Virus record (IMG/VR): IMGVR_UViG_3300032287_001770
Coordinates: 1-24,121 of that record
Length of the DNA: 24,121 bases
Strand: one strand, 5' to 3'
From: a virus
This document shows positions 8,092-22,152 of the stretch, one piece after another. The number at the start of each line of letters is the position of its first letter. Position 1 is the first letter of the stretch. The position numbers and the translations under genes are program-made. The notes beneath the pieces are model-generated. The model saw only the letters and a list, made by a program, of their open reading frames with translations. It was not told where the DNA came from and made no database searches.

Positions 8092-9662
8092 CACATCCCC
8101 CGACCGAGACGACCGTGCGCCTCGCTGATCATGCCGCTGATGTCGCGCCCGAGCTGCGCGCGGTCAGCCGCGTACACAAGCCCGCTGCTGCCCCAGTTGA
8201 TGACGACCGTCGTGCCCGCGCCCTCGCGAGCGCCAGCCGTCAGCGCAGGCCCGCCAGTGGCCGCAGCAGGGCCAGCGCCGCCACCGCCACCTCCACCGCC
8301 GAACGCGCCAGACGCAGCGCCCACGACGCCAGCAGCGACGCCGACAGCGGCCCACTTGCCAGCCTCAGCGAAGTGCAGCGCAGCACTAGGTGAGCCGACT
8401 GCGAGCGCGCCGAGGCCCATCGCCGTTGCTTTCAGTCCTTGGATGATGGCTTCGCTCGCCAGCGACTTCGCGATCTGTTTGACCATGTCCTGCATGGCCT
8501 CGCCGATGGAGCGGCTGCCGTCAAGCATCGCGTCGACGCTAGACTGCATCGCGGTTTCAATCGAAGAGAACACGGCGTCAGTGCTCTCTTGCAACAGCGC
8601 AGCCTGCTCGTCTTGCAGCGCTTTCAACACGTCGCGCTGTTCAGCGGCCACCTCGATTGCACGGTCCTTCGCTGCGTTCGACTCGTCGATTTCCTGCTGG
8701 CGCATCCGCGCGCGTACGTCGGCCTCGTCGGCCATCGTCTCTTCGTTCCACGCGATATCACGCTGAATCTGCTCCGCGATTGCGGCGCGCTGCTCCGCGT
8801 AGACGTCGACGAGCGCCGCCGTCGTGTCACGCACAGATTGCACGCGTGACGATCGATTGCGACGATCAGCTTCCTCTTGATTCTTAGCTGCCTCTTTCGC
8901 GGCCTCTTCGCGGATTTGCTCAAGCTCGATGTTCGCGCGGTCTTGTTCCTCAGCGACGGCCTGATTCTGCAAGCGCACACGATAAAGCGCGACCTGCTCC
9001 GCGCGCGTTTCTTCAGTCCGCAGCCGTTCAATCTCTGCCTGATATCGACGCTCATTTTCGAGGCGCGTGCCAAGACTCAGCGATCCCTCTGGTCCGCGCT
9101 GCTCAAGTGCCGCACGACGTTGACGCACCGTCTCTGCGTATTGCTCCGCTTGACGGGTAAACGCCTCCTGCTCAATCGATGTTCCGAGGCCCATCGCAAC
9201 GCGCGAGCGCGTTGACATCGCGCGGTTCGCTTCTTGTACCTTGGATACAAGGTCACCGAGCGTCGGGATGACTTGCTCTTTGATATCCTTCGCGGAGTCT
9301 TTGGCTTCCTTGCTGTACTCAGCCCACAATGACGTACCCGCAGAAACCGCGATGCTTAGTGCGCTGAGCGCGATGCCAAGCGGACCAAGACCAGCAGTCG
9401 TCAGCCCTTGAATGACGCCAGTCGCAGAGCCAGCCATCGTGACCAGCCCACCGAGTGCCGGGTTCAGTTTGCCGACAGCCTGACCAGCAAGGCCGAGCGC
9501 GCTGCCGTACTGCCCAATCTTGGTCTGCGCCGCTTGCGTCGCGTCGCCAACTTTGGTTGTGGCTGCCGCCGTTTGCGTTGCCGCTTGCGTAACGCCCTTG
9601 AGCGCGGTGGTCGCCTGCGAAGTATCGAACTCGACTTTGACGTGGATGTCCTGCTCAGCCAT
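8091..9662 (-). CDS. Tail tape measure protein
   Basis: This 523-residue protein has the classic tape measure composition. A short N-terminal region (EFDTSQATTALKGV) is followed by Ala/Thr/Gln-rich helix, a hydrophobic segment (about 68-112), and a long charged helical region (about 115-380) full of Glu, Arg, Ala and Gln. A second hydrophobic helical zone follows, then a Gly-run/Ala linker and a conserved-looking C-terminus. The protein spans the tail lumen and sets tail length. By the usual ratio of about 0.15 nm per residue, a tail of roughly 75-80 nm would be expected; this is inference. ATG 9662 is chosen because GGAGG lies 6 bases upstream; an adjacent GTG (9665) is too close to it. The helical middle looks less GC-rich than flanking genes. 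Confidence 0.85.
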   Translation of the reverse strand: MAEQDIHVKVEFDTSQATTALKGVTQAATQTAAATTKVGDATQAAQTKIGQYGSALGLAGQAVGKLNPALGGLVTMAGSATGVIQGLTTAGLGPLGIALSALSIAVSAGTSLWAEYSKEAKDSAKDIKEQVIPTLGDLVSKVQEANRAMSTRSRVAMGLGTSIEQEAFTRQAEQYAETVRQRRAALEQRGPEGSLSLGTRLENERRYQAEIERLRTEETRAEQVALYRVRLQNQAVAEEQDRANIELEQIREEAAKEAAKNQEEADRRNRSSRVQSVRDTTAALVDVYAEQRAAIAEQIQRDIAWNEETMADEADVRARMRQQEIDESNAAKDRAIEVAAEQRDVLKALQDEQAALLQESTDAVFSSIETAMQSSVDAMLDGSRSIGEAMQDMVKQIAKSLASEAIIQGLKATAMGLGALAVGSPSAALHFAEAGKWAAVGVAAGVVGAASGAFGGGGGGGGAGPAAATGGPALTAGAREGAGTTVVINWGSSGLVYAADRAQLGRDISGMISEAHGRLGRGM

Positions 9663-9665
9663 CAC

Positions 9666-10049
9666 TCACCTCCGCTGAGCCTCTGCCATCCGACGCTCCG
9701 ACTCGCGGCGCTCGCGCTCCGCTCGCAGGTCCATCGCTTCGATTGTGTTCTGCGCGCCGTCGATCTCGAGCAGCGCGTCGACGACGACCGCGAGCTGCTG
9801 GTCTACGTCGATCGCGCCGTGCGACCAGTGCCGACGCATCGCCATCGCAGCCGACACGACCGGGTCGCCGTACGCGCGCCACGGGCACGACGTCGGCGTG
9901 TCGTTGGTCATCCGGCCGATGCCGTTGCGGATGCGCTCGACAGCAGCGCCTAGGCCCGCGCTAGAGCCGCGACGCACCGCGACTAGCCGCTCACCGCCAC
10001 AGTCGCAGTCCCACGCGATACGCACGCTCCTAGCGTCCGCACGGGCCAT
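9666..10049 (-). CDS. Tail assembly chaperone, downstream (T-type) ORF, probably made as a -1 frameshift extension
   Basis: This 127-residue frame lies in the -1 register relative to the upstream chaperone ORF, immediately before the tape measure gene. That is the position and register of the T part of the lambda-type G/GT tail chaperone pair. Visible motifs are WDCDC (a Cys-X-Cys), a CPWRA segment near the middle and a charged helical C-terminus with RERRESERR. The first ATG (10049) comes 2 bases after the upstream stop but has no good ribosome binding site. The frame is open far upstream, past a C CCT TTC slippery heptamer at 10178-10172. A -1 shift there would add 168 residues, from 10172, to 157 of the upstream protein, for about 325 in total. 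Independent translation from 10049 remains possible. No enzymatic role is expected; these proteins bind the tape measure during assembly. Confidence 0.65.
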   Translation of the reverse strand: MARADARSVRIAWDCDCGGERLVAVRRGSSAGLGAAVERIRNGIGRMTNDTPTSCPWRAYGDPVVSAAMAMRRHWSHGAIDVDQQLAVVVDALLEIDGAQNTIEAMDLRAERERRESERRMAEAQRR

Positions 10050-10051
10050 GT

Positions 10052-10642
10052 CTAGCCCGCGACGGTGGTCGACGTGTCGGATGCGGTCGCCGTGTGGGTG
10101 TCCGCATGGGACAGGGACTGACGCGCCAGCACGAACGCCGAGGTAGCCGGAAGCGGCGCAAAGCCCTCGACGAAAGGGCCGAGTCTGCTCCGCGCGTAGG
10201 CCACCGCGCCAATCTCGTAGAGCGCTTCGATGCTCACGCATTCCATCAGGTAATCCAGCGCGTCAGCGTCGAGCGCGGGACGCCCGTCGTGCTGCTCGCG
10301 CGGGAAGATAGCCTCGCTCTTCCAGGCAAGCGGCGGGCACACCTCTGCGCGCACCAGCGCATAGGACAGCGCACGCAGCCAGCGTGACTCCGCAGTCGGC
10401 AGCGAGTCGCATTGAGCGCGCTCGTACGCACGCAGCGGGCGCAGCACAAAGACGCTTGCGCGCTTGCCCGCGACGTACTTGAGCAGCGCCTTGTCGCGCG
10501 TGCCGTAGCGTGCCTCATCGACCGTCTGGCCGACGTGCCCGAAGTGCCTGACGAAGTCGCGCCCCATCGCCGCGCGGTCAATCGCAGGGTCGAAGGAAAC
10601 GCAGCAATGGAGTTCGCGAGTCGGGTCGGATTCGTAATGCAT
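10052..10642 (-). CDS. Tail assembly chaperone, upstream (G-type) ORF
   Basis: This 196-residue protein sits between the tail tube and the tape measure genes, the invariable place of the first tail assembly chaperone. It is mixed helical, with a RHFGHVG segment, a YVAGKRASVFVLRPLRAYER segment and a Thr/Ser/Ala-rich tail without hydrophobic anchors. A GAGGAGG ribosome binding site lies 7 bases before the ATG, so it should be well expressed. At codons 156-157 (Pro-Phe) the sequence is C CCT TTC in the correct phase for -1 slippage into the downstream frame, which runs on to 9666. Unshifted translation ends at the TAG at 10054-10052. I see no recognisable family signature; the call rests on synteny and the frameshift signal. 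Confidence 0.65.
   Translation of the reverse strand: MHYESDPTRELHCCVSFDPAIDRAAMGRDFVRHFGHVGQTVDEARYGTRDKALLKYVAGKRASVFVLRPLRAYERAQCDSLPTAESRWLRALSYALVRAEVCPPLAWKSEAIFPREQHDGRPALDADALDYLMECVSIEALYEIGAVAYARSRLGPFVEGFAPLPATSAFVLARQSLSHADTHTATASDTSTTVAG
10135..10178 (-). promoter_or_regulatory. Candidate -1 programmed frameshift signal in tail chaperone gene
   Basis: The heptamer CCCTTTC (10178-10172) has the canonical X XXY YYZ form in the zero frame of the upstream chaperone ORF. Two bases later a two-tier stem can form: CGAGG (10169-10165) pairs with CCTCG (10043-equivalent arm at 10143-10139), enclosing an inner GCCG-CTTC-CGGC hairpin (10157-10146). The -1 frame is open from here to 9666. 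Frameshifting at this locus is well known in other phages; this heptamer's efficiency is untested. Confidence 0.6.
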
Positions 10643-10681
10643 ACGTGCGCCTCCTCAAGCGCAGTTCTGCGTGTGTGGCTA

Positions 10682-11947
10682 TCAGAAGATGTGAACGCGG
10701 AAGGCGCTGCGCTGCACGTCCGTAGATGGCGCGGCGATGGCTTCGTCGTTGCGGCCAGCCCACGAGACGAGGAAGCCATACAGGTCATTGGCAGGCGTGC
10801 GCGGCGGCACCACCGAGAGCTGCACGGTCGGCGCGCTAAGCAGCACGATGCCCGACGTCGTCATGCCGATCTGCTGGAACAGGCTGAGGTCGGTGCGATT
10901 CGTGTCTGCGGTGATCCAGTTGGTCGCGGTGTCGTCGTAGACCTGCACCTGACCCGTAATCGCGCGACCACGCGCGCGCTTCCAGCCGATGATGCCGCTC
11001 GACGCAGGCCCTTCCGGCGACGTGACCGGCAGATTTGCAAGCCCCGGCGTCCACGTCGACGACGAGTGCGACACGACGTTGCGCGTCTGCGATGCCGTGA
11101 TCGTGCCAGTGCCGAGGATGAGCTCGGACGTCATGTGCGCGATGGGCGAGAAATCGGTGATCGTCGCAGCTGCCAGCGACAACGTGCTCGTGCGCGCCCA
11201 CGACGCGCCCGTGAGCTGCGTGCTGAGCTTCGCGATCTGACCCTGCGTGATGTCGATCGACATCGTGCCCTGCATCCCGAGGCCGACGTACTCATCGCCG
11301 CTTTCCGCGCCTTCGATGAGAAACTGCAGCGTCGAGAGGAAGCCCGCGAGATTGTTGGTCAGGCCGAACGTCGTGGCCCAGATAATGGGCTCGCCAGTGA
11401 CAGGCGCAGCGCTGTGCGCGACCTTCGGCACGACTGCGTTTGCCGTACACGACAGAATCTCACGCGCCTCGTAAAGACCTGTCGACTGGATGCGCACGGC
11501 ATACGCGCCACCGGGCGCACCGAGCGTGTTGCCGTGGCCTGCCGTGACGTTGACGCTGGTCGTCGTGGAGCCTGCCGTGACGGCCGTCGCAGCAGCCTGC
11601 GGCGTGCCCTGGTACGCAGCGCCCATCAGCGCGGCGAGCAGACGGCCGAGTGCCCACGTCGTGGACCACGCGTTGTTGCCGTCTTGCGGTGCGCCCGTGC
11701 CTGCGAGATACGTCGTCAGCGCGAGCGTCGACGACTTCTTCGCGAGCACCATCTTGGAGTTGGTGTAGCTGTGCAGATACTGCTGTTGCAGCTCAGGCTC
11801 GAGATGGTCGGTGAGCGGGACGAAGGTGCCGCTGTTCTCGACAATCGGCAGGTCGAGAAAATTTGCAGGCGTGCCGGATTCATCGACGGCGAACGCAGCC
11901 TCAGCCGCGATTCGCGTACGCCCGAGAGCAGAAACTTGAACGGTCAT
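10682..11947 (-). CDS. Major tail tube protein
   Basis: This 421-residue protein precedes the tail chaperones and tape measure, the expected place of the major tail protein that polymerises into the tube. The sequence is Thr/Ala/Gly/Val-rich with beta-like alternation and no membrane segment. Features include an N-terminal RTRIAAEAAFAVDESG segment, a TTYLAGTGAP motif, a YDDT segment and a C-terminal RVHIF. It is longer than minimal tube proteins, so it may carry an extra surface domain; the Ala/Thr/Gly-rich segment at about 110-160 is a candidate. An AAGGAG ribosome binding site lies 7 bases before the ATG, in line with high expression. No sheath gene lies beside it, which argues against a contractile tail. 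The call is by synteny and composition. Confidence 0.75.
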   Translation of the reverse strand: MTVQVSALGRTRIAAEAAFAVDESGTPANFLDLPIVENSGTFVPLTDHLEPELQQQYLHSYTNSKMVLAKKSSTLALTTYLAGTGAPQDGNNAWSTTWALGRLLAALMGAAYQGTPQAAATAVTAGSTTTSVNVTAGHGNTLGAPGGAYAVRIQSTGLYEAREILSCTANAVVPKVAHSAAPVTGEPIIWATTFGLTNNLAGFLSTLQFLIEGAESGDEYVGLGMQGTMSIDITQGQIAKLSTQLTGASWARTSTLSLAAATITDFSPIAHMTSELILGTGTITASQTRNVVSHSSSTWTPGLANLPVTSPEGPASSGIIGWKRARGRAITGQVQVYDDTATNWITADTNRTDLSLFQQIGMTTSGIVLLSAPTVQLSVVPPRTPANDLYGFLVSWAGRNDEAIAAPSTDVQRSAFRVHIF

Positions 11948-11958
11948 GAGTGTTCTCC

Positions 11959-12501
11959 TTAGACGATATCGGCCGCAGTGAGCACGACACCCGTGAAGCG
12001 CTGCTCGAGCTGGTAGAGGCCACCACCATCGGTCTGCCCTGAGCGTGCCGCGTCATCGCGCGTGACCGTCGTGCCCTGCCACATCAGCACGCCCGACACG
12101 ATGCCCGTCGCCACGCCACCGACAGTCGTTGTGAGTTTGCCGGGCCACGCGAGCGCCTGCGCGACGAGGTCCGTAGACGACGCCGCAGCGGCCTTGACGG
12201 CGGCGTATTCGGTCGGCAGCAGCGACTGCGATTCAAGCAGGTAGCTGTACGTCAGCGTGACCTCGAGGCCGCGCATCCATATGTTGCTCGGCTGCTGCGG
12301 CCGGTCCTCGAGCATCGGATACGCGACGGCAATCTCGACGCGCGCGGTGCTAGCGGTGCGCAGCGACAGCGTCAGGTCTGCGGTGCCCTGCGCCACGTCG
12401 CACGAGAGTAGGCCCGGCGTGATGGCGCGTACGCCCGTGGCGGTGCCTTCCAGCACCTCACGCAGCGCGCGGCGAATGGCGACGTCGGCGACGGCAGTCA
12501 T
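11959..12501 (-). CDS. Putative tail terminator / neck protein
   Basis: This 180-residue protein lies between the virion morphogenesis (Mu G-like) gene and the tail tube gene. Phages with this gene order put the tail terminator or a Mu gp37-like tail completion protein here. It opens with a helical segment (ALREVLEGTATGVRAI), followed by alternating beta-like regions (ADLTLSLRT, RVEIAVAYPM, LEVTLTYSYLLES). The C-terminus (YQLEQRFTGVVLTAADIV) resembles a final strand. A GGGAGG ribosome binding site lies 8 bases upstream of the ATG, which also overlaps the preceding stop. No catalytic motif is seen. The structural role is likely; the exact identity is inference. Confidence 0.55.
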   Translation of the reverse strand: MTAVADVAIRRALREVLEGTATGVRAITPGLLSCDVAQGTADLTLSLRTASTARVEIAVAYPMLEDRPQQPSNIWMRGLEVTLTYSYLLESQSLLPTEYAAVKAAAASSTDLVAQALAWPGKLTTTVGGVATGIVSGVLMWQGTTVTRDDAARSGQTDGGGLYQLEQRFTGVVLTAADIV

Positions 12502-12974
12502 CAGCGCAGCCTCCCGTTGACGATGAAGCTACCTACTTGCGCAGCGATGCGATCAAAGACCAGCTTTGCAGGGCCTGCGTCGTCGGTGAGTTGGCCGTCG
12601 CGCGTGATCGGCATGAATGGCCGCGCTGGGAAGAAGCGTGTGCCGAACTGCTGGAATCCTGCGTATTCGATGTTGCTGCTGAAATAGATGGTGCGTGCAC
12701 CACCGCGCGCGACCGTGCGCTTGCGCAGCATTCCAGTGTCGACAAGCGGCGTATCCGATTTTTTCTTGCGCTTCTTGATCGTCTTCTTGCTGAGTTCTTT
12801 CCAAGGCACGCCAGTCGGCGACGCGCTGAGATCGAAGGTCTTTTTCATGAGGCGGTCAATCGCCTCCGCGCCGACCTTCATTGCGGGCGTCATGTCCTGC
12901 GTGCGCTTCATCATCGCGCTCATCTTACGCGCCAAGTCCTGCGGGCTGCGGCCCGGTGGGTACGTGACACCCAT
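12501..12974 (-). CDS. Phage virion morphogenesis protein (Mu gpG / P2 gpS-like tail completion)
   Basis: This 157-residue protein shows the recognisable family pattern: a helical, Met/Lys-rich N-terminus (about 1-50), a WKELSKKTIKKRKKK segment (about 63-77), the motif PLVDTGMLR, and then a YAGFQQFGT segment followed by PARPFMPI. In relatives the family includes Mu G and P2 S, which act in tail completion or head-tail joining. The start codon overlaps the stop of the preceding gene as TGATG, and no clear ribosome binding site is present, so translation is likely coupled. It is near the usual family length and appears intact. Confidence 0.8.
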   Translation of the reverse strand: MGVTYPPGRSPQDLARKMSAMMKRTQDMTPAMKVGAEAIDRLMKKTFDLSASPTGVPWKELSKKTIKKRKKKSDTPLVDTGMLRKRTVARGGARTIYFSSNIEYAGFQQFGTRFFPARPFMPITRDGQLTDDAGPAKLVFDRIAAQVGSFIVNGRLR

Positions 12975-13438
12975 CAGAACAGCGACAGGTTGCGCATCGT
13001 GAAGACGGGGTCCGACGAGGTCATCGTCGTGCCGTTGATGATGTCCGCGCCACCATCGCCGCCGAGCGGGTCGCGCTCGAGGCCGGGCAAGTCGAGGCGC
13101 ACACCGTCAGTCGCGTAGATGCTCGACGGGTCGGGAATCGTCGCGACGATCGCGGCCGGAATCTCGATGCCGCGCGCGTAGAACGACGCGAGTTTCAGCC
13201 ACGCGCCGAACGACATGAGCCGCAGCAGCTCGAAGGCGTCGCCGCTCGACGGCTGCTGAGGAGACAGCGTGACCGACGAATACCCGCCTTTGCGACACGC
13301 GCTGAGCACCGTCGCGTCGGCCGCAGCGATGTAGACCGCGCGTGCCCCTGCGTCGCTCGCGATGGCCGCGTACTGCGCGGGACCACGCGTGCCGCCACCC
13401 AGCATCGATTCGATGTACGCGTCGGTCAGGAGAGCCAT
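12974..13438 (-). CDS. Putative head-tail adaptor protein (Mu gp36 / DUF1320-like)
   Basis: This 154-residue protein starts MALLTDAYIESML and has a mainly helical core. A GDAFELLRLMSFGAWLKLASFYARGIEIP segment resembles the DUF1320 and other head-completion adaptors, in which a helical bundle docks below the portal. Ala-rich helices with a DAGARAVYIAAADATVLSA pattern precede it. I chose ATG 13438, one base after the previous stop, because GAGG lies 6 bases upstream. A longer frame from 13486 would overlap the previous gene with no added support. It lies between the capsid and tail genes, as an adaptor should. Similarity to DUF1320 is judged by eye and is moderate. Confidence 0.55.
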   Translation of the reverse strand: MALLTDAYIESMLGGGTRGPAQYAAIASDAGARAVYIAAADATVLSACRKGGYSSVTLSPQQPSSGDAFELLRLMSFGAWLKLASFYARGIEIPAAIVATIPDPSSIYATDGVRLDLPGLERDPLGGDGGADIINGTTMTSSDPVFTMRNLSLF

Positions 13439-13439
13439 G

Positions 13440-13733
13440 TCACGCCTCGCGCTGGAAGGTGTCGGGGCCTTCGCCCTCATCAGCAAAGGTGATGAACGTC
13501 ATGCCGCTTGGCTTGCGCACACGCAGCTCGATGCCGTTCATCCAGTCGATGCGGACCACGACGGCCTCGCACACGACGCCTGTGACCGTGATGAATCGGA
13601 CGCGCTCTCCAGGAGCCACCACAGCGCGCGCCGCAGCCTCGACGTGCTCAGCCATGGGGGCGTCGCTGACGACGGGCGCAGCGGCCTCCTCGACCTCAGC
13701 AAGCGACTTCGACGTGCGGCGCGCGCGAGCCAT
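13440..13733 (-). CDS. Small hypothetical head-tail region protein
   Basis: This 97-residue protein has a basic, Ala-rich N-terminal half (ARARRTSKS; about 1-40, probably disordered). The C-terminal half is compact and beta-like (VAPGERVRFITV, then GIELRVRKPSGMTFITF), resembling a small SH3-like or beta-barrel domain. The start overlaps the preceding stop as TGATG and has GAGG 8 bases upstream. The next gene begins one base after its stop. No family is recognised; a minor head or connector protein is the contextual guess. Confidence 0.6.
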   Translation of the reverse strand: MARARRTSKSLAEVEEAAAPVVSDAPMAEHVEAAARAVVAPGERVRFITVTGVVCEAVVVRIDWMNGIELRVRKPSGMTFITFADEGEGPDTFQREA

Positions 13734-14275
13734 CAGCCGCGCCTCTGCTGCGTGGACGCGTCGAGCTTCGCGTTGAGCTTCTCGAGCGCGTTCACCACGC
13801 TCGCGAGAACCGCGTCGCTTGCACCCGGCGACGCAGCCGCCGTCGCTGCCGTCTCCGCGATGGCGCGCGCCTTCGTGCGCTCGTGCTCAATCTCGATGGT
13901 GTCGAGTTCGCGCAGCACCTCGACGCCCGTCAGCGGCAGCACGTCGCGCAGCGTGATGGTGCGGAACTGCGACTCAGCGCTGATAGGACACTCGCCCTCC
14001 GCGCGCTTGGTCTGCGCGCACCAGTCCGCGATGTACGTCGGCAGGTTCGCGATGCACGACTGGTAGTCGGCCTCGCGCGTCTCGACGAGCCGCTGAAGCG
14101 CGGGCAGGTCGCTGCGGTAAATCTGGATGGTGTGCGTGCCTGACGGGTACGCGCGGCCGTCATTGAGCATCTGGCCCATGTGACCGGGACGCACGGTGAC
14201 GCGCACGAGCAGGCGCGCTTCGGGACGCGCATTCGCGGGCACGTGCCCGTATGGCGTGGAGTGATCGTATTCCAT
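13733..14275 (-). CDS. Hypothetical protein downstream of major capsid gene
   Basis: This 180-residue protein is the first gene after the regulatory gap that follows the major capsid gene. An AGGAG ribosome binding site lies 8 bases before the ATG. The N-terminal half is mixed (EARLLVRVTVRPG, then a YRSDLPALQRLVETREADYQ helix) and has two Cys (around 74 and 86). The C-terminal half is helical and ends in a likely coiled coil (VVNALEKLNAKLDAS). It is not recognised. Its position, between the major capsid protein and connector genes, suggests a minor capsid or assembly protein. Confidence 0.6.
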   Translation of the reverse strand: MEYDHSTPYGHVPANARPEARLLVRVTVRPGHMGQMLNDGRAYPSGTHTIQIYRSDLPALQRLVETREADYQSCIANLPTYIADWCAQTKRAEGECPISAESQFRTITLRDVLPLTGVEVLRELDTIEIEHERTKARAIAETAATAAASPGASDAVLASVVNALEKLNAKLDASTQQRRG

Positions 14276-14422
14276 TGCTTCATCTCCTCATGATGAACGC
14301 TGCGATATGCAGCGGGACCAGCGGCGGGAGTTGCACCCGCCATCACGCTTGCGCGCGACTGCGACTCGCATGGTCTGTGGGGACATGATTAGTGCGTGCT
14401 TGCACTAATCATATCTAACCGG
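14276..14422. other. Intergenic gap (147 bases), the only sizeable one in the window
   Basis: This stretch lies between the major capsid gene and the next gene. Apart from the inverted repeat it contains a TATGAT element on the minus strand that resembles a -10 box, but without a convincing -35 element at the right distance. The ribosome binding site of the following gene lies at its left end. Very short open frames occur (up to 26 codons), but none has support. Confidence 0.7.
14382..14415 (-). promoter_or_regulatory. Strong inverted repeat downstream of major capsid gene
   Basis: Two perfect 11-base arms (14385-14395, ATGATTAGTGC, and 14402-14412) are separated by 6 bases. On the minus-strand RNA the stem extends to 14 pairs with a single U-G wobble. 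It begins 7 bases after the major capsid stop and is AT-rich in a GC-rich setting. No U run follows, so it is not a classic intrinsic terminator. It may be an RNA stabilising or processing hairpin, or an operator-type palindrome. Confidence 0.6.
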
Positions 14423-15394
14423 CTACAAAATGCCGCCGTAGATACAGGGCCACATCCCGGCCGCGTACTGACCATCAGCGATGAGGCCGAAGGTCAGCGC
14501 GTCATTCTGCATGACGGTCGGGCTGCTGAGGTCGATGTCGAGCTGCTCACGCGGAGCCGCGCCCTCGACAAAGAACATCGGCTTTGCGCCGCCAGGGCCC
14601 TCGCCGACGAGGTACCAGTAGTCGTCCTGCGTGCCGACGATGCGCGGGTCGACGATGAGGTCGACGAGGCCGTTGTACGCGTTGCTGACTCCCGCGCTCG
14701 CGACGACCGCCGCACCAGCCTCGAGGCCGGTGTTGGCGACCGAGCGACCACGGATATCCATCTTCGTGATCTCCGCGCCGACAAGGCGGTTCTTCGGGCC
14801 GACGACGAGGTAGCGCGGCACGATGCGGAAGGGCTCGCCGTTCTCACGCTGCAGCGACGTCATCGACGCGAACGCCGTGTCGAAGGTCAGCGGGCTGAGA
14901 GCCGACGTGGTCTTATTGCTCTGATTGCCGCTCGGCCCGTTGGGGTGCGACGTCGAGAAGAGGTTGACGCCGTCGTAGCCGACAGGGCCGTCACCGCTGT
15001 TGAGGAAGAGTCCCTGATGCAGCACGTAGTCCTTGTAGGACTGCGCAGCGCTCATGAACTTGCGGACGCGCGCGGCGACGATTCCCGAGCGATCGTACTC
15101 TGCATCACGGCGACGGATCTTGAGCTGCACGGCCCACGTGGTGAGCAGCACGTTGAGGCGGTACGCGCGGCTCACGCCGGTCTGACGCGCGCCGTCGAAC
15201 TCGAGCCAGTTGCCGAGGAAGTCCTCGAGGATGATCGACGTGGTCGTGCCACCGTCAGCGGGGATCGTCTCGCAGAGCGCGTTGACGAGGCCGACGTCAG
15301 CGGACGACGTGAACAGTTCGTCGGCCATCGAACGGAAGACAGTTGCAGCCGCGTCAATGGCGGTCTGATTGATGACGTGTGAAGAGTCAGACAT
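14423..15394 (-). CDS. Major capsid protein (Mu gpT-like)
   Basis: This 323-residue protein matches the Mu-like major head subunit in size, place and features. The N-terminal helical region has ADELFTSSADVGL; there is a YRLNVLLTTWAVQLKIRRRDAEYD segment; a conserved-looking NLFSTSHPNG loop follows; and toward the C-terminus a LVVGPKNR...AGAEIT region precedes a long beta domain. The protein should take the HK97 fold and build the capsid shell. A good AGGAG ribosome binding site (6 bases before the ATG) fits high expression. It lies downstream of the protease/scaffold and decoration-like genes and upstream of a strong hairpin. The family assignment is by pattern from memory; length is normal. 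Confidence 0.85.
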   Translation of the reverse strand: MSDSSHVINQTAIDAAATVFRSMADELFTSSADVGLVNALCETIPADGGTTTSIILEDFLGNWLEFDGARQTGVSRAYRLNVLLTTWAVQLKIRRRDAEYDRSGIVAARVRKFMSAAQSYKDYVLHQGLFLNSGDGPVGYDGVNLFSTSHPNGPSGNQSNKTTSALSPLTFDTAFASMTSLQRENGEPFRIVPRYLVVGPKNRLVGAEITKMDIRGRSVANTGLEAGAAVVASAGVSNAYNGLVDLIVDPRIVGTQDDYWYLVGEGPGGAKPMFFVEGAAPREQLDIDLSSPTVMQNDALTFGLIADGQYAAGMWPCIYGGIL

Positions 15395-15427
15395 TGGTTG
15401 CTCCTGAGTGTGATTCTGATGACGCTA

Positions 15428-15850
15428 TCAGAGCGTCGCCGCGCCGCGAATACGCACCCAGCCAGCGGTGGTGGAGACGGCCTGGATGAGGTCACCGACC
15501 TTGACATCGTTGGTGCCGAGAGCGGCAGTCGTGACGAGGTCGCTGTCCGAGATGACGACGGCAGCGCCGTGCACGCCGACGAGCGTCGACGCCGCGCCGA
15601 GCAGCTCCTCGTGCCCAAACTTGACGTTGATGGTCGCGCCAGCGGCGGCCGAGACGACCGTCTCCGTGGCGATGCCGACGAACACGCACGAGGCGGTGTC
15701 AGCGCCCGGCAGCGCGAGGCCGGTGGACGACGTGAGCATCACGAGCGAGCCCTCGTAAATGGTGGTGCCGGTGGTGCAGGTGTACGTGGCGTACGAAGCG
15801 AGCGAATCGTTGCGCGTCTGACGCGCCGTCATTGCGGTGAGTGCAGCCAT
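15428..15850 (-). CDS. Capsid decoration-like protein
   Basis: This 140-residue protein lies between the protease/scaffold gene and the major capsid gene, the classic position of a head decoration or stabilisation protein. It is almost entirely Ala/Thr/Val/Gly/Ser-rich with beta-like alternation (EGSLVMLTSSTGLALPG, VFVGIATETVV). The ending (VKVGDLIQAVS...WVRIRG) is typical of small beta-barrel decoration proteins such as DUF2190-like proteins. The start is supported by AGGAG 6 bases before the ATG. It probably binds the outside of the shell; this is inference from place and composition. Confidence 0.7.
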   Translation of the reverse strand: MAALTAMTARQTRNDSLASYATYTCTTGTTIYEGSLVMLTSSTGLALPGADTASCVFVGIATETVVSAAAGATINVKFGHEELLGAASTLVGVHGAAVVISDSDLVTTAALGTNDVKVGDLIQAVSTTAGWVRIRGAATL

Positions 15851-15885
15851 GGTGATCTCCTATTGAGCGGGTGAACCGACGCGCG

Positions 15886-16812
15886 TCACGCGTTGGAATT
15901 GCGAGCCGCGTGCTTGCTCAGCATCACGGCGACATGGTCATCCGCAGCCTTGCCACGAAGGCCAGCGGCCTTTGCGTCAGCGCGGAAAATGTTGACGAGC
16001 GGGTCAGTGCTCGACAGCTTGGCGACGCCGTTCTCGCGCGCGGCCTTCGGGCCGGTGACGAGTGCGCCGACAGGCGGCTGCGCGGTCGCGGGCAGCGCGC
16101 TGTAGATGTCGAGCGCCAGCGTCTCGTTCTGCTCGCTTGCCTTCACGAACGTGTCGCGCTGCGCCTCAGTGACGCGGCCCTCGCCGAGCAGCCGCGAGAA
16201 CGACGCCGCGATGCGAGCCGTGCGCTCAAGCGCCTGACGCTGCGCACGCTCCTGCGACAGCTCCGCGACCTGCGCCTGGAGCGTCTGCACCGTCGCCGCG
16301 AGCTCGACCGCGCGAGCCTTGTGCGCCGAGAGTTCCGTGGTCTGGCGCATCATCTGCGCGCCAGCGTCGGCGCTCATGCCGCTCACCGGACCAGCGACGA
16401 GCATCGCCGCAATCTGGTCGAGCTTCTCCGTGATGGCCGCGACGACGCCAGCCTCATCGAGTCCGGTCGCCTCCACGAGCTTGCCGAGCACCATCGTGCC
16501 AGCGGCCTCAGTAGCCTCTTCCGCGAGGTCGGAGACGTCGGGCACGCTCTCGACCATCTCATCGACGAGCAGCTCATCCGCGAGCTTGCGGACGCCAGCC
16601 GCGATGCGCGAGAGGCCCTTGACCTTCTTCTCGTCCATCATCATCTCAGCGACGCCCTCCGACGCGATTTCCGCGACGGGCATCGACTCCTCTGCCATCG
16701 CGCCAGCGAGCGCAACGAGCGCGTCAAAGGCCTTCTTCATCTTCTCCGGCGTGGCGTCCTTCTTGAGGCCGAGCGCCGTCGCGATTGCCATCAAAACCTT
16801 CGTGGGATCCAT
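15886..16812 (-). CDS. Nested in-frame scaffold protein from internal start
   Basis: ATG 16812 (MDPTKVLM) lies inside the protease/scaffold gene and in its frame. AAGGAG sits 7 bases before it, one of the best ribosome binding sites in the window. Translation from here gives a 308-residue protein that covers just the helical scaffold part and lacks the protease. Mu makes such a pair (I and Z) and lambda another (C and Nu3), so a free scaffold product is expected here. The start falls exactly at the boundary between the protease-like and helical parts, which supports it. Protein-level proof is lacking. Confidence 0.7.
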   Translation of the reverse strand: MDPTKVLMAIATALGLKKDATPEKMKKAFDALVALAGAMAEESMPVAEIASEGVAEMMMDEKKVKGLSRIAAGVRKLADELLVDEMVESVPDVSDLAEEATEAAGTMVLGKLVEATGLDEAGVVAAITEKLDQIAAMLVAGPVSGMSADAGAQMMRQTTELSAHKARAVELAATVQTLQAQVAELSQERAQRQALERTARIAASFSRLLGEGRVTEAQRDTFVKASEQNETLALDIYSALPATAQPPVGALVTGPKAARENGVAKLSSTDPLVNIFRADAKAAGLRGKAADDHVAVMLSKHAARNSNA

Positions 16813-17400
16813 TGCGAGACTCCTTGTGGATTTCCGCGACGGAGCCCCGACGCGGGAGAGAGTGATGGGCGTCATGCCCGGCAGAAATGGACTCGGCGTG
16901 AGCCCAAGTTCGTACAGCTCAGCGAGGCCCGCGCTCTCGCCGGTGACGCGGTCAATCGGCGCGAAGTCCACGACCACCGAGCAGAAGCGCTGCGCACCAA
17001 GCGCGATGCGGTCGGCTGCGTCCTTCGTCCATTCGACGTAGCCCCACAACTCGACGCCCTGCGCACCGTCGCGAATCTCAAGCGCCTGAATCCAACCAGC
17101 CGCGTCGATGGGAACGCCGAGGTCGTGGCGCGGGTGACCCCACAGCACAGGCACAGGCTGCTCGCCCATGTCGTAGAGACGCTTGATGTCCGCAAACACC
17201 GCGCGCGTAAATGCGAATGGCCCAGCGGGATGGCCGTTCCATTCGCTCTCATAGGCCATCTCGACCCACGAGCACGCAGCGTCCACGAGGAGCGGCGACT
17301 TCATCGCGGGCTTGATGCCGTCAGCGAACGCGCCCAGCGACGCACGCAGCGCGAGGATGCGGCGGTCAGCGAACGCGGTTGCAGTTTGCTTGGTAGCCAT
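15886..17400 (-). CDS. Prohead protease fused to scaffold (Mu gpI-like)
   Basis: This 504-residue protein has two parts. Residues about 35-190 resemble the Mu I-type prohead serine protease: LWGHP with His89, a GWIQALEI strand, WTKDAADRI, then RFCSVVVDF whose Ser141 aligns with the catalytic-serine site (YxSP in relatives). The usual Ser-Pro is replaced by Ser-Val. Residues about 197-504 are highly helical, Ala/Glu/Lys-rich with coiled-coil segments (QAQVAELSQERAQRQAL) and act as the scaffold around which the shell assembles. The GAGG ribosome binding site is 7 bases before the ATG. A strong internal start at codon 197 makes separate scaffold expression likely. The protease should cut scaffold and capsid proteins during maturation. 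The fusion is normal for Mu I. Confidence 0.8.
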   Translation of the reverse strand: MATKQTATAFADRRILALRASLGAFADGIKPAMKSPLLVDAACSWVEMAYESEWNGHPAGPFAFTRAVFADIKRLYDMGEQPVPVLWGHPRHDLGVPIDAAGWIQALEIRDGAQGVELWGYVEWTKDAADRIALGAQRFCSVVVDFAPIDRVTGESAGLAELYELGLTPSPFLPGMTPITLSRVGAPSRKSTRSLAMDPTKVLMAIATALGLKKDATPEKMKKAFDALVALAGAMAEESMPVAEIASEGVAEMMMDEKKVKGLSRIAAGVRKLADELLVDEMVESVPDVSDLAEEATEAAGTMVLGKLVEATGLDEAGVVAAITEKLDQIAAMLVAGPVSGMSADAGAQMMRQTTELSAHKARAVELAATVQTLQAQVAELSQERAQRQALERTARIAASFSRLLGEGRVTEAQRDTFVKASEQNETLALDIYSALPATAQPPVGALVTGPKAARENGVAKLSSTDPLVNIFRADAKAAGLRGKAADDHVAVMLSKHAARNSNA

Positions 17401-17404
17401 CAGG

Positions 17405-18250
17405 TCACCTCACGAAAGACGATGCGCCGAATCCCGGCGTCATCACAAAGCCAGCGGGAATGCTCTCGACGAAGTCCTTCGCGAGGCCCTCGTCGTCAAA
17501 CTCTTCTTGCGACACGGTGACCAGACTGCACCTACACATGAATCCCGCAGGCGGCGCGAGCACGCTAAACGCAGGATTGTCCGCGCGCCAGACCTTGCTT
17601 TCCATCGGCGCGTGTTCCGCTCGCACGCGATTGTCGCGCGCGGTGAACCATTGGCGGTAGGGCCGTGCGTCGATGACGTCGGGGTCGTTCATCTGCTGCC
17701 AGCGGCCTGCGCCATACGCGCTCGCGACGTTGGTGCGATAGACGTTCTCGAGATACGACGGGTCCGCAGGCGCGATGCCGAGCGTGATGCTCTGGTCATT
17801 CATCGCGCGAGAGAAGTCGCGCAGAGTCGAGCCCGTGTCGAGCGTGCGTTGCAGCTCATCGACCGCACGACGCGAGATGACGTCGAGTTGCTCGTCGGTC
17901 GCCATCGACGCACGCCGCCGATACGCGCGCAGCACTTCCTCAAGGATGGCCGGGTCACCACCGCGCTCGCGCCAGAACGCGACGGCCTCGTTGAACGGCA
18001 TCTTGAGAAATGACGGCCGCAAATCAGTTGCGAGCTGCCGCTGCGCGCCCATCGCGTCGAGCTCGACAAGCCGCACGAACATCTGGCCGGCGAGGTCGCT
18101 CTTGACGCTTGCTTGATAGATGAGCGCTTCGAGGTCCGGGTCGCCCTTGTACGCGGCGATAGCCTCGCGAATCGCGTCCTCTGCCGACGCTGCTCCCGCA
18201 GCACCCTCAGCAGCGCGCGCTATAGCCTCTCTGACAGGCGTGAAAAGCAC
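17405..18250 (-). CDS. MuF-type head morphogenesis protein (minor capsid), possibly expressed by -1 frameshift from portal
   Basis: Read from the only start codon in frame (GTG 18250) the protein has 281 residues. The C-terminal part (about 165-247) matches the Mu F / SPP1 gp7-like domain: YRTNVASAYGAGRWQQM, a WFTARDNRVRAEHA segment and the PPAGFMCRCSL ending with its paired Cys. Such proteins sit at or inside the portal and help DNA packaging or ejection. N-terminal residues about 35-62 (PDLEALIYQASVKSDLAGQMF) look like a helical domain that in related phages can be the C-terminus of DUF935 portals. GTG 18250 has no good ribosome binding site. The frame stays open 77 codons further upstream over the portal tail, past a slippery heptamer at 18418-18412. 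A portal-MuF fusion by -1 shift, of about 911 residues, would use this frame. Independent translation is possible but poorly signalled. Confidence 0.75.
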   Translation of the reverse strand: MLFTPVREAIARAAEGAAGAASAEDAIREAIAAYKGDPDLEALIYQASVKSDLAGQMFVRLVELDAMGAQRQLATDLRPSFLKMPFNEAVAFWRERGGDPAILEEVLRAYRRRASMATDEQLDVISRRAVDELQRTLDTGSTLRDFSRAMNDQSITLGIAPADPSYLENVYRTNVASAYGAGRWQQMNDPDVIDARPYRQWFTARDNRVRAEHAPMESKVWRADNPAFSVLAPPAGFMCRCSLVTVSQEEFDDEGLAKDFVESIPAGFVMTPGFGASSFVR

Positions 18251-18297
18251 GACCGCATCGAGGGTCGTCTCGGCTGCGACGACGTACGGACGGCCGA

Positions 18298-20139
18298 TTA
18301 CCGCGCGAACACGCGTCGCCTCTGCTTCGTCTGCGAGGGCGCGGACGTCACCGAACTCGAAGACGTCGTCGACAAGCTCGGCATCCCACCCGCCGAGCCC
18401 TGTGACGTCGAGAAAGGGAGCCCCGCGAGCGCACCCCCAGGCGCGTCTGTAGCGGGCGTGGCGACGTCGACCGGCGCTGCACTAGCCTCCGCAGGCGCAG
18501 CGGGCGTAGCGGGCGCTGAGGGCGCAGCGACAGGCGCTGGCGTCGCAGGCGTCGCAGGCGTCGCGGGCTGCGCGACTGAGCCATCCTCGCTGATGACCGC
18601 AGGCACGAAGCCCTGACCGACTGCGCCCATGATGCGCTCTGCGTCCTCGCGCGAGATCGGGAACGCAGCGACCATGATCTCGACGCCGCTCGCGCGCGGC
18701 AGCTGGCCAGTCGCGACCTGCGCCACGATGCCCATAAGCGCCTCGACCTGCGCGCCGTTGAGCGCCGTGTCGGATGCGCGTGCGGGCTCCGCGACGAGGT
18801 CTGTCTCTGGATTGAATGCGGGCGCAGCAGGCTCAAGCGGCAGGCCCGGCAGCATCGGCGCGGCAGCCTGCGCGACCTCTGCGATATCCTCGCCACCGTC
18901 CTCGACACTCCACGCAGGCAGGCCGAGCGACGAGCGCACTTCGTTGATGCGCACAGCGCCGACGTTGATGGCGTCAGCGGTAATCGGCAGCGTGTCGTCG
19001 AAGATCGTTGTGATGACAGGCAGCGGGATATCAGCGCGGCGCAGGTTGTAGTACGCGAGCCACCTCACGACGTCGCGCGTGATCGAGCCCCACATGAGCG
19101 TGGCGTCGAGCTTGCTGCCCTCGAGACGCACACCGTCGCGCGTCTCCGTGCTCGAGCGCGAGCCGTTCGCGCCGCTCAGGTAGAGGTCGGGCGACACGCC
19201 GAGCGACAGGAAAATCTCTTCGTTCAGCGACGCTCGCAGTTCTTTCCACACGCCCGTTGAACCCGCGCCCGCAGGGTCGATGATCTTGATATCGCTGGTG
19301 CCGCTCGTGACGCCGACCGAGTCGGCCGTGAGCTGCTGGAGGTCGTCGAGGATGCGCTGGCGCTGCGACGAATCCGACGACGCCGCCATCTGCGCGAGCA
19401 CGAGCGGATTGCCGAATCGCTCAGCGCCGACAAGCCAGAACGTCCATACGTTCCTTTTGAACATCCAGTAGAAAACACACGCGAGGAAATCGCCCTGATC
19501 CATTGGACGGCCGGGGTCTGTCCACGGCACGTGCGTAAGAAACTTCGCGGGGAAGTTTACGGTGTTGTACCACTGATAATCGAAGTCCCTGACCTCGAGA
19601 GTCCAGTCCTGCGCGTACCGCAAGTTGCGTGTCTGCACCGGCACAGGCTGCGGCATCCACGCGCCGTTCATGCGCGACCACACCAGCTCGTGCACCGAGA
19701 TGCCCATGCCGATGCCGTCGAGCACGCGCATCAGAAACGTCTCGCGAGCCTCAAGCGAAGAGAGCCATTCCTTCGTCAGCTCGACCAACTCCTGCGCTGC
19801 ACCGCGCATCTCAGGCGCGACGTCAGGCGGCATCTCGACAGCGTAGCGACGGCCTGCCACCGACGAGCGGCGCGTGGCGTACGCGCGACGTACGACAGGG
19901 TCACGGCGCATCTGCGTCGCCATGTCGGCCCAATACTCGTAGTTGCCGAAGTCGAGTTCACGCAGAGCAGTCGAGATGCGCCCCGGCGACACCGGCTGTA
20001 GCGCACGGCCCGTGATAGCGCTGAGAGGCTGCGGACGGATGACGCGCCCCATCTCAGGGATGCGCGTCACGGTGCCCATCGGCTCAGGCGTGGCGGCTGC
20101 GACGGTGCGTGTCGCGCGCGGCTTGCGGGTTGTCGTCAT
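18298..20139 (-). CDS. Portal protein (DUF935 / Mu gp29-like)
   Basis: This 613-residue protein forms the ring through which DNA enters and leaves the head. Family features include an N-terminal MRRDPVVRRAYATRRSSVAG segment, an ERFGNPLVLAQM segment, a helical core with LGVSPDLYLSGANGS, and a C-terminal LNGAQVEALMGIVAQVATGQLPR helix pair typical of DUF935 portals. A Pro/Ala/Thr-rich linker follows (about 515-560), then a Ser/Thr-rich tail with basic residues (RRR). GGAG lies 7 bases before ATG 20139; a more upstream ATG would overlap the terminase. Codons 575-576 contain C CCT TTC in slippery phase; the reading after a -1 shift runs into the MuF frame. The tail beyond that point is only 37 residues in the zero frame. 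Confidence 0.85.
   Translation of the reverse strand: MTTTRKPRATRTVAAATPEPMGTVTRIPEMGRVIRPQPLSAITGRALQPVSPGRISTALRELDFGNYEYWADMATQMRRDPVVRRAYATRRSSVAGRRYAVEMPPDVAPEMRGAAQELVELTKEWLSSLEARETFLMRVLDGIGMGISVHELVWSRMNGAWMPQPVPVQTRNLRYAQDWTLEVRDFDYQWYNTVNFPAKFLTHVPWTDPGRPMDQGDFLACVFYWMFKRNVWTFWLVGAERFGNPLVLAQMAASSDSSQRQRILDDLQQLTADSVGVTSGTSDIKIIDPAGAGSTGVWKELRASLNEEIFLSLGVSPDLYLSGANGSRSSTETRDGVRLEGSKLDATLMWGSITRDVVRWLAYYNLRRADIPLPVITTIFDDTLPITADAINVGAVRINEVRSSLGLPAWSVEDGGEDIAEVAQAAAPMLPGLPLEPAAPAFNPETDLVAEPARASDTALNGAQVEALMGIVAQVATGQLPRASGVEIMVAAFPISREDAERIMGAVGQGFVPAVISEDGSVAQPATPATPATPAPVAAPSAPATPAAPAEASAAPVDVATPATDAPGGALAGLPFSTSQGSAGGMPSLSTTSSSSVTSAPSQTKQRRRVFAR
18369..18418 (-). promoter_or_regulatory. 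Candidate -1 programmed frameshift signal joining portal to MuF
   Basis: Heptamer CCCTTTC (18418-18412) has canonical X XXY YYZ form in the portal frame. Immediately after it, TCGAC (18411-18407) can pair with GTCGA (18373-18369). This outer stem encloses a perfect 7-bp hairpin, GCTCGGC (18398-18392) with GCCGAGC (18382-18376). The -1 frame is open from here through the whole MuF gene to 17405. The same heptamer, phase and nested-stem layout occur at the tail chaperone gene. Confidence 0.55.
18539..18565. repeat. Short tandem repeat, 3 x 9 bases, in portal linker
   Basis: Three consecutive copies of GGCGTCGCA, the last with one change, encode the PAT-PAT-PAT stretch of the portal linker. It lies within a longer Pro/Ala/Thr-rich region that is probably flexible. 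Such repeats can change length by slippage. Confidence 0.8.
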
Positions 20140-20158
20140 CGGTATTGCTCCGAGGGCG

Positions 20159-21664
20159 TCAGCCCCAGTAGTTCTTCCGGCCGCGTCCATCGCGCGGCGC
20201 GTAATCGCGCGTGAGGTCTGCGCTCACGCGACGGCCAGTGCTCGCGACTGGCGAGCCGACGTGCATCTCTGAGAGCAAGTCGAAGGCCGCTGCGAGCGCG
20301 TCTACCTGGTCGTCGTGCGCGTCGTTCTGCCCGGTGAATCGCGCGACCTCGTCGCACAGGTCACGCGTCCACGCAGCGCCCTCGCGCACGAGCACGCGGC
20401 CTGCGTTCCACGCTGCGGCGAAGGGAGTTGCGCGGCTGTACTTGTCTCCGAGCGCGGGCTTGACGTCGACGCTGAGGCCCACGCCGCGAGGTGGCGGCAG
20501 CGCGAGGAAGTCAAGCGCACCACGGTCTGCGCCGCCTGCGTAAATGCGCGTCGCCGTGTGCGGCCAGCGCGATTTCAGTTCCGCGAGACGCAGCGCGAAG
20601 TCACTCGCACGCATCTGCTCGCGCATCACGTCGAGGACGTAGTACCGCGCATCCGGCCCGACACCGGCTTTGCCCATCACGACGGCCACCGACCAGTCAG
20701 CCGACGTCCGCGCGCTGTACGCGAGGTCGAGGCCGATCGCGCGCGAAAGCTCCGTGGGTGCGACTGCGTACGTCGTCGGCGATGCTGAGAACACCGCGCC
20801 GCCTCGTGCTCGAGGCTGGCCCATGTAGAGCGCTGCCCACTCGTACGGGCCGACCTCGCGCTCGCGCTGGCGCAGGAACTCACGCGGCCTCTGCGACGGC
20901 CAAAGCGACTCGTCGTCAGCGGTAATCGCAGGGAGGTTCACCGTCTCCCATCCATCACTTTCGAGGCGTCCAATCAGGTCGTCCGGGTGCCATCGAGTAT
21001 GGACCACCACACACGAGCCTGTCGGCGCGATGCGCGTAAGCGCCGTTGAGCGCAACCAGTCCTCGACCTTGTCGCGCTCGCGTCTGCTCTCGGCCTCTTC
21101 GCGGTTCTTGTGAGGGTCGTCGACGACTACGATCTGCGCCGCGTATCCGGTGAGCGGACCGCCGATGCCCGTCGCAAGCAGACCGCCACCCTCGACCAGC
21201 CGCCAGCGTCCAGCCGCGCTCGTGTCGTCGCGCAGCGCCAGCCCAGCCTCACGCGCAAGGTCGCGAATCTCTTTGCTGCGGTCGTGCGCGAAGTCGGCCG
21301 AATACGATGCGTAGACGACAGGCCACGTCGGCTGCCGCGACAGCGCCTGGACGATGCCGTGCTGAATCAGCGTCGTCTTTCCAAACTGCGCAGGCACCGA
21401 GACGCAAGCCCTGACGACTTCGCCGCGAATGGCGCGCTCGAAGAGCTCGGCCACCGGCGCAAGGTGATGCGGCGCAGACCAGCGCGGTGACAGCGCGGGC
21501 ACGTACTCCACGAGCGGCAGGCGCGCGCGGAGGTCGCGCTTCGTCGGAGACGCCTTCGCCTCAAGCTCTGCGAGCCTCAGCGCCGCCTGCGCTGCGAGAC
21601 TGCCCCTCGCCCGCTGTAGCTTGCGCGCCCGTATCTGCTCGCGGACGTAGCCGCCCTGCCCCAT
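20159..21664 (-). CDS. terL: Terminase large subunit
   Basis: This 501-residue packaging motor has an N-terminal ATPase and a C-terminal nuclease. The Walker A-type loop is PAQFGKTT (91-98), a variant without the usual Gly before Gln but with the key Gly-Lys-Thr. Walker B is VVVDD (179-183). A coupling-like segment (VVVHTRWHPDDLIGRL) follows. The nuclease part has GLDLAYS (Asp313) and HDDQVDA (450-456), whose acidic residues should bind metal. ATG 21664 is chosen because it overlaps the small subunit stop as TGATG and has GAGG 7 bases upstream; an upstream in-frame ATG at 21751 would overlap the small subunit by 88 bases. Length and motif order are normal for TerL. It is packed against the small subunit and portal, the usual packaging module. 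Confidence 0.9.
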   Translation of the reverse strand: MGQGGYVREQIRARKLQRARGSLAAQAALRLAELEAKASPTKRDLRARLPLVEYVPALSPRWSAPHHLAPVAELFERAIRGEVVRACVSVPAQFGKTTLIQHGIVQALSRQPTWPVVYASYSADFAHDRSKEIRDLAREAGLALRDDTSAAGRWRLVEGGGLLATGIGGPLTGYAAQIVVVDDPHKNREEAESRRERDKVEDWLRSTALTRIAPTGSCVVVHTRWHPDDLIGRLESDGWETVNLPAITADDESLWPSQRPREFLRQREREVGPYEWAALYMGQPRARGGAVFSASPTTYAVAPTELSRAIGLDLAYSARTSADWSVAVVMGKAGVGPDARYYVLDVMREQMRASDFALRLAELKSRWPHTATRIYAGGADRGALDFLALPPPRGVGLSVDVKPALGDKYSRATPFAAAWNAGRVLVREGAAWTRDLCDEVARFTGQNDAHDDQVDALAAAFDLLSEMHVGSPVASTGRRVSADLTRDYAPRDGRGRKNYWG

Positions 21665-22152
21665 CAGTGCGCCTCGTCGCCCTCGTCGGCGTCGCCCTGC
21701 GCATCGCCCTCGCCGACGCCAGCCAGCGCTGCCAAGAGCGCCGCGTACCACTGCGACGGCAGCACCTCGCGCGCGACCTCGAGGACGTCCTGCGCCGCTT
21801 GGTCCTGCGCTTTCAGCACCATCGTCTGACTCGGCGCGTATGCGTCAGGCATCATGCGCTCGAGCATCCACGCTCGCGCCTTCCAGTCTTGAATCTCGCC
21901 GTTGTCGGTAGGCGTGGCTTGCAGCCGAATGACGTCCAGCGTCTCGGCCTCAAACTCTGCGCGAGCGCGAGCGACGGCCGCAAGGAACTCCGAGTATTGC
22001 GCGTGTCCGCGCTCGGCCTCTCGCCGCCAATACTCAAGGTTTCGTTTGTCGACGCCTTCCGCTTGCACGGCTGACTCGACACGCAATCCTGCCCTCACGC
22101 GGGCGCACACACGCTGCGTGAACGCCTCCGTGATCATGCTCGGTCGTGCCAT
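21664..22152 (-). CDS. terS: Terminase small subunit
   Basis: This 162-residue protein precedes the large subunit and ends in the stop that overlaps its start. The N-terminal part (about 8-50) looks like a helix-turn-helix DNA-binding region (AFTQRVCARVRAGLRVESAVQAEGVDKRNLEYWRR pattern). Longer helices follow (ARAEFEAETLDVIRLQ), suited to the oligomeric ring of small terminases, and the tail is acidic (GDADEGDEAH). It should recognise viral DNA and hand it to TerL. The start overlaps the stop of a possible short upstream ORF as TGATG, with GAGG about 9 bases upstream. The combination of fold, length and synteny is convincing. Confidence 0.8.
   Translation of the reverse strand: MARPSMITEAFTQRVCARVRAGLRVESAVQAEGVDKRNLEYWRREAERGHAQYSEFLAAVARARAEFEAETLDVIRLQATPTDNGEIQDWKARAWMLERMMPDAYAPSQTMVLKAQDQAAQDVLEVAREVLPSQWYAALLAALAGVGEGDAQGDADEGDEAH

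Follow-up and report, generated by a model that had tools for sequence, protein, structure and literature searches.

The heptamer CCCTTTC is found in two genes of this viral DNA, those of the portal and of a tail assembly chaperone, which raises the question of whether both copies are programmed -1 frameshift sites and whether they work through one shared recoding element. The window, the whole stretch analysed here, is 24,121 bases of an IMG/VR virus record with its genes on the minus strand, as are all window features given below. These include a terminase (20159-21751), a Mu-type portal gene in the 0 frame (18298-20190, 630 aa; Pfam Portal_Mu PF06074, 2.7e-46), connectors, a Mu I-like protease (15886-17400), a Mu gpT-like capsid (14423-15394), a tail-tube-like gene (10682-11947) and a tape measure (8091-9665). 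The 0-frame ORF at 10052-10642 (196 aa) was assigned as a G-like tail assembly chaperone by its position between the tail-tube-like gene and the tape measure. Two further domains lie in the -1 frame, MuF, a Mu F / SPP1 gp7-like minor head protein that would be read after a slip (17405-18418), and the T domain (9666-10178). The Phage_Mu_F domain (PF04233, 17522-17860) was matched directly downstream of the portal at 7.1e-17 and 62.6 bits against a cutoff of 29.6, placing this protein in the MuF family.

A preliminary description of this DNA had reported three coding-strand copies of CCCTTTC and our recount agreed. Exactly three were present in the window, all on the minus strand (2664-2658, 10178-10172 and 18418-18412), against an expected count of 0.8 for both strands, and 3 of 100 shuffles reached this number. 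Two copies were in slippery phase as described, the 0 frame reading ..C CCT TTC and the -1 frame CCC TTT, and the long open -1 frames claimed behind them were also found, 358 codons at the portal and 198 codons at the tail gene, overrunning the 0-frame stop by hundreds of bases at both sites. The third copy (2658-2664) was correctly described as non-slippery; it reads CCC TTT C in a 122-aa gene and is not a slip site. Across the 18 window genes an in-phase X XXY YYZ heptamer (Y = A/T, Z not G) was found no more than five times; the portal and tail sites account for two of these and lie 40 and 42 codons ahead of a stop that a long -1 ORF runs past. When copies were counted by phase in relatives both sites were conserved, but two or three in-phase CCCTTTC copies also occurred in other genes without a long -1 frame, so the heptamer alone does not suffice. 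The idea that the host ribosome favours CCCTTTC was weakened by these copies and by the tail gene, as relatives have CCCTTTT, TTTTTTC or GGGTTTT at the same position.

The portal heptamer (C CCU UUC, 18412-18418) was invariant in relatives. MuF was in the -1 frame behind an in-phase CCCTTTC in 28 of 28 distinct close relatives (~75-98% identity), and the same arrangement and heptamer were found in L109 and L112 (60% identity) and in L113 (56%). The predicted portal-MuF fusion product is 928 aa. Conservation of the -1-frame protein started at the slip codon itself (PF-[LP]-D..), the codon-usage score flipped from the 0 to the -1 frame at CCCTTTC in 9/9 genomes carrying the site, and downstream of the slip variation shifted to the third positions of the -1 frame. 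The 0-frame end of the portal after the slip was ~38 codons of low complexity and was variable in length among relatives (14 residues in L113), and is therefore probably not important. Full-length profile alignment suggested that the portal's own C-terminal helical domain follows the slip, a match that was not significant when this part was aligned alone (hhalign E 0.36). A relative without MuF, G009, has a portal that carries neither the slip site nor the frameshift arrangement. We also considered that the frame break was a sequencing or assembly frameshift or the remains of a decayed portal-MuF fusion gene, as natural in-frame portal-MuF gene fusions exist in Microbacterium phage clusters EA3/EA5/EA8/EB (PMC7302621). 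However, 31 distinct sequences, assembled independently of one another, break frame at this very base and are under protein-level constraint, and the chance of such an artefact is practically negligible.

The tail-gene heptamer (C CCU UUC, slip from G to GT, 10172-10178) was CCCTTTC in 14/15 and CCCTTTT in 1/15 distinct relatives, and was replaced by TTTTTTC in G008 and by GGGTTTT in G009. The letters vary while the slippery pattern stays, as expected under selection for slipping. Constraint switched from the 0 to the -1 frame over the G/T overlap, as it did at the portal, and the predicted G-T fusion is 325 aa. The gpG/gpGT layout consists of two overlapping ORFs that immediately precede the tape measure and are joined by slippage; by this layout, which the window has, the tail site is a predicted member of the gpG/gpGT kind, the classic event. 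Searching the G and T ORFs against Pfam and PHROG gave no family match. The T domain has conserved Cys/His residues (CGHP..H..DH, WDCDC) that resemble a metal-binding site and are partly kept even in G009.

If the heptamers were incidental, MuF and T could each be initiated separately, from an internal start or by stop-start coupling. Isolated Mu-like phages have coupled or overlapping portal and MuF genes of this kind, with a start-stop overlap in PA1/KOR and B3 and overlaps of 14 and 8 nt in MMP7 and Lsp-JY19. The window itself has possible starts, as the MuF frame is open from 18481 with a GTG as its first start codon, 56 codons past the slip, and an ATG at 10049-10047, just past the G stop, could start T. 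However, scanning the MuF frame detected no ATG, GTG or TTG in about half of the close relatives, many relatives had none ahead of the conserved sequence, and where a first start was present it was usually at least 55 codons beyond the slip. The T-proximal ATG was missing in L046, L055, L066 and G008, and the T frame of G008 has no start codon at all. Separate initiation also does not fit with a conserved -1 protein that begins at the slip codon or with heptamers that are invariant or swapped for other slippery ones, and we consider it quite unlikely.

The preliminary description had further drawn similar two-tier nested stems behind both heptamers (18369-18411 at the portal and 10139-10171 at the tail gene) and had suggested that one recoding element may be reused. 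We assessed the shared stem by folding, pair counting and RNAalifold. Complementary segments do exist at both sites, but 62-nt folds did not outperform those of shuffled sequences (z -0.91 and -0.31). For the portal stem, pairing as drawn was seen in 69.8% of cells, which is not more than in shuffles, and RNAalifold gave a different, weak structure. Of 24 sequences, 21, 19 and 17 could not form the inner-helix pairs of columns 15/35, 17/33 and 14/36, respectively, and no two-sided changes were found at the drawn pairs among the aligned relatives. The tail pairs were kept in 94.9%, again with no two-sided change, and the DNA there is under constraint from both frames. Covariation was looked for in both stems and no pair with a two-sided change was found in either. 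The shared nested stem was therefore rejected at the portal, where it is broken in most relatives, and left unsupported at the tail, where it never covaries; because the one breaks and the other is kept without covariation, the stem layout is not a conserved element. A conserved downstream stem or pseudoknot, an optional part of -1 frameshift sites, was not found in the window clade and was found in the Bacteroidota junctions described below.

With stems that are unalike and one of them unconserved, the proposal of a single reused element did not hold. In its stronger form, a portable cassette of heptamer and nested stem copied between the portal and tail genes, it would fit with the identical heptamer and the superficially similar complementary segments. 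The aligned sites show no flanking similarity, however, and the tail heptamer varies independently of that of the portal (in G008 the portal heptamer is CCCTTTC and that of the tail gene TTTTTTC). Together with the broken portal stem this largely refutes the cassette, which we regard as very unlikely.

The elements common to the two sites are the heptamer and, unequally, an upstream Shine-Dalgarno-like block only. A purine block was present 14 nt upstream of the portal heptamer in 31/31 sequences, mostly as GGAGGTG and in the window as GGGGGUG (18432-18438), and was kept within an otherwise fast-changing linker. Using a 16S tail that may differ from that of the host, the anti-SD duplex of the window block scored -9.7 kcal/mol, in the top 0.9% of genome positions. 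The same scoring gave -9.4 to -10.8 kcal/mol (top 0.2-1.2%) for the other sequences, with the exception of L113 (-6.9, 4%). Prophage relatives of the window-clade MuF were sought in genome contigs as a clue to the host and none were found. Upstream stimulators of this type are expected at about 10-14 nt, a spacing found at the portal (14 nt); the tail gene has only a weak GGAG 9 nt upstream of its heptamer (10188-10191), which is absent in G009. Slipping at the portal is thus probably stimulated by internal Shine-Dalgarno pairing 14 nt upstream and not by the drawn stem. The linker ahead of the slip site (18460-18900) is modular, and ~350 nt of the window, made up of an extra segment and an Ala/Pro-rich repeat, are missing in many relatives.

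Both sites have the canonical features of -1 frameshifting, an in-phase X XXY YYZ heptamer and a -1 frame that continues past the stop and is conserved as protein. Based on the frames, heptamers, constraint switch, missing starts and Shine-Dalgarno-like conservation read from the sequences, it is very probable that the portal and tail sites are two programmed -1 ribosomal frameshift sites with the products G/G-T and portal/portal-MuF. Conservation in relatives gives strong support to the core of the first description, two genuine recoding sites that share a heptamer. We infer that a minority of ribosomes would slip at C CCU UUC, with tRNA-Pro and tRNA-Phe re-pairing on CCC and UUU and translation continuing in the -1 frame. 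As in lambda, slipping at 10178-10172 would make G-T alongside G as tail assembly chaperones, and a slip at 18418-18412 would give the portal-MuF fusion, with most ribosomes making portal alone. The efficiency of slipping would then set the stoichiometry, that is, the number of MuF-bearing subunits among the 12 portal subunits. Its proposed role in assembly is to bring a small number of MuF copies into the procapsid bound to the portal from the start; such loading, most likely at a fixed portal : portal-MuF ratio, would be achieved by MuF as a covalent extension of a few portal subunits.

A second signal was found at portal-MuF junctions outside the window clade. In L116, a distant MuF relative (28% identity), the portal ends ..AAT TTT TTC GAC TAA, with a perfect 7-bp hairpin behind it and MuF in the -1 frame, and its relatives among Bacteroidota phages and prophages (Limnovirga, Chitinophagaceae, Prevotella, Muribaculaceae) repeat the TTTTTTC and hairpin arrangement. 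The pattern TTTTTTCGANTARGCCC matched at least 120 stretches as compared to 25 for the reversed control pattern, and 73 of the 80 matches examined were between a long 0-frame ORF and a long -1 ORF. Among the matches examined there were 66 distinct junctions, with a portal-like protein upstream in 66/66 and a MuF-like protein downstream in 63/66; no portal- or MuF-like neighbours were found near the 25 control sites. Pfam detected Portal_Mu followed by Phage_Mu_F in 5/5 junctions tested. A hairpin of at least 6 pairs was present in 56/71 flanks and in 0/71 shuffled flanks among the matches examined. Pairs 5, 6 and 7 of the hairpin each showed all four Watson-Crick types, so that compensatory changes were abundant, counted beyond the GCCC that the search pattern fixes. 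No start codon followed the portal stop within 60 nt in 33/62 junctions and within 120 nt in 18/62; in some, a start codon is close behind the portal stop, which counts against frameshifting there. These Bacteroidota Mu-like phages would thus use the same fusion strategy with the heptamer UUUUUUC and a covarying hairpin. In the Bacteroides phage Hankyphage p00 the overlap of portal and MuF contains TTTTTTC and the complementary segments GCCCCG/CGGGGC, and the annotation gives the pair as two ordinary genes. Some relatives of the L116 type have one long ORF in place of portal and MuF (judged by the ORF only) or start-stop coupled genes.

The homopolymer runs at these junctions could also point to slippage by RNA polymerase rather than by the ribosome, both in the Bacteroidota TTTTTTC and in an A10 run of Winogradskyella phage Peternella_1. 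CCCTTTC has no long run, however, and the slippery codon phase together with the Shine-Dalgarno-like or hairpin elements is what ribosomal slippage needs, making transcriptional slippage extremely improbable. In Peternella_1 (L374, 2219-2246) runs of A10 and A7 directly precede the portal stop, MuF is in the -1 frame and the only start is a GTG 99 nt later, and L242 has an A-run. From their sequences these two may be further cases of portal-MuF slippage, with Peternella_1 possibly a third variant.

Tail chaperone frameshifting is textbook, and the lambda gpG/gpGT -1 frameshift was reportedly described by Xu, Hendrix and Duda in 2004. The lambda event, also reviewed in PMC5009743, resembles the window tail site in its location between the major tail gene and the tape measure, an X XXY YYZ heptamer near the end of G, a long -1 T ORF and a minor fusion product. 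Unlike lambda, the window has CCCUUUC as its heptamer, a T domain with conserved Cys/His and no recognisable G/T family match. That review also gives frameshifted structural genes in A2 (major head), T3 (capsid) and PSA (capsid and tail), where, similarly, some copies of a virion protein gain a C-terminal domain; in the window it is instead the portal that would be extended, by an entire minor head protein. Portal binding and a few copies inside the capsid are established for SPP1 gp7 only (PMC5576092, PMC6316719), a protein that is dispensable for assembly and helps infection (PMC6316719). SPP1 gp6 portal and gp7 are products of separate genes that bind non-covalently (PMC5576092, PMC6316719), unlike the covalent fusion predicted here, and the SPP1 frameshifts are located at 17.1 and 17.5, not at gp6/gp7. 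The Microbacterium fusions join the same two partners in one polypeptide (PMC7302621), but there every portal subunit would carry MuF, whereas in the window only the frameshifted fraction would.

The portal-MuF frameshift appears to be unreported and to recur in many gut and environmental Mu-like phages. No description of it was found in the open-access literature, preprints excluded, which is not proof of novelty, and the part of the main recoding review consulted names head, tail and coat genes only, with no mention of portal found there. The PRFect paper has MuF-like genes among its unannotated frameshift predictions (PMC10885494), but these are VIP2 ADP-ribosyltransferase/MuF-like pairs in which MuF is discussed with a toxin partner, and the word 'portal' is absent from the text. 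We consider it likely that this frameshift is widespread and overlooked, that it tethers a set, small number of MuF proteins to the portal ring, some of them bearing C-terminal toxin-like domains, and that it has at least two origins with different signals, Shine-Dalgarno plus CCCUUUC in the window clade and UUUUUUC with a hairpin in phages of Bacteroidota, among them Hankyphage. Frameshifting, separate coupled genes and in-frame fusion would then be three solutions that can replace one another. If true, this would explain a sub-stoichiometric, portal-tethered MuF, predict a portal ring of hybrid make-up in which a few subunits are extended, and correct how many Mu-like phages and prophages are annotated, Hankyphage of gut Bacteroides among them, as their MuF starts are now guessed. 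The frameshift signal would be easily testable.

Pfam places CdiA_C or LPD3-like domains at the C-terminus of some of the MuF proteins that follow the Bacteroidota portal frameshift (L253:4248-5621, L301:2952-4316 and L259:3794-5122), suggesting that in these three slipping may control how much of an effector is loaded into the capsid. Hankyphage p00 (L402) also has in-phase CCCTTTC and CCCTTTT at 22107 and 22221, in the second gene upstream of the tape measure, with a -1 frame that extends 239 nt past the stop of this gene. This gene is likely an unannotated tail chaperone frameshift with the heptamer found in the window.
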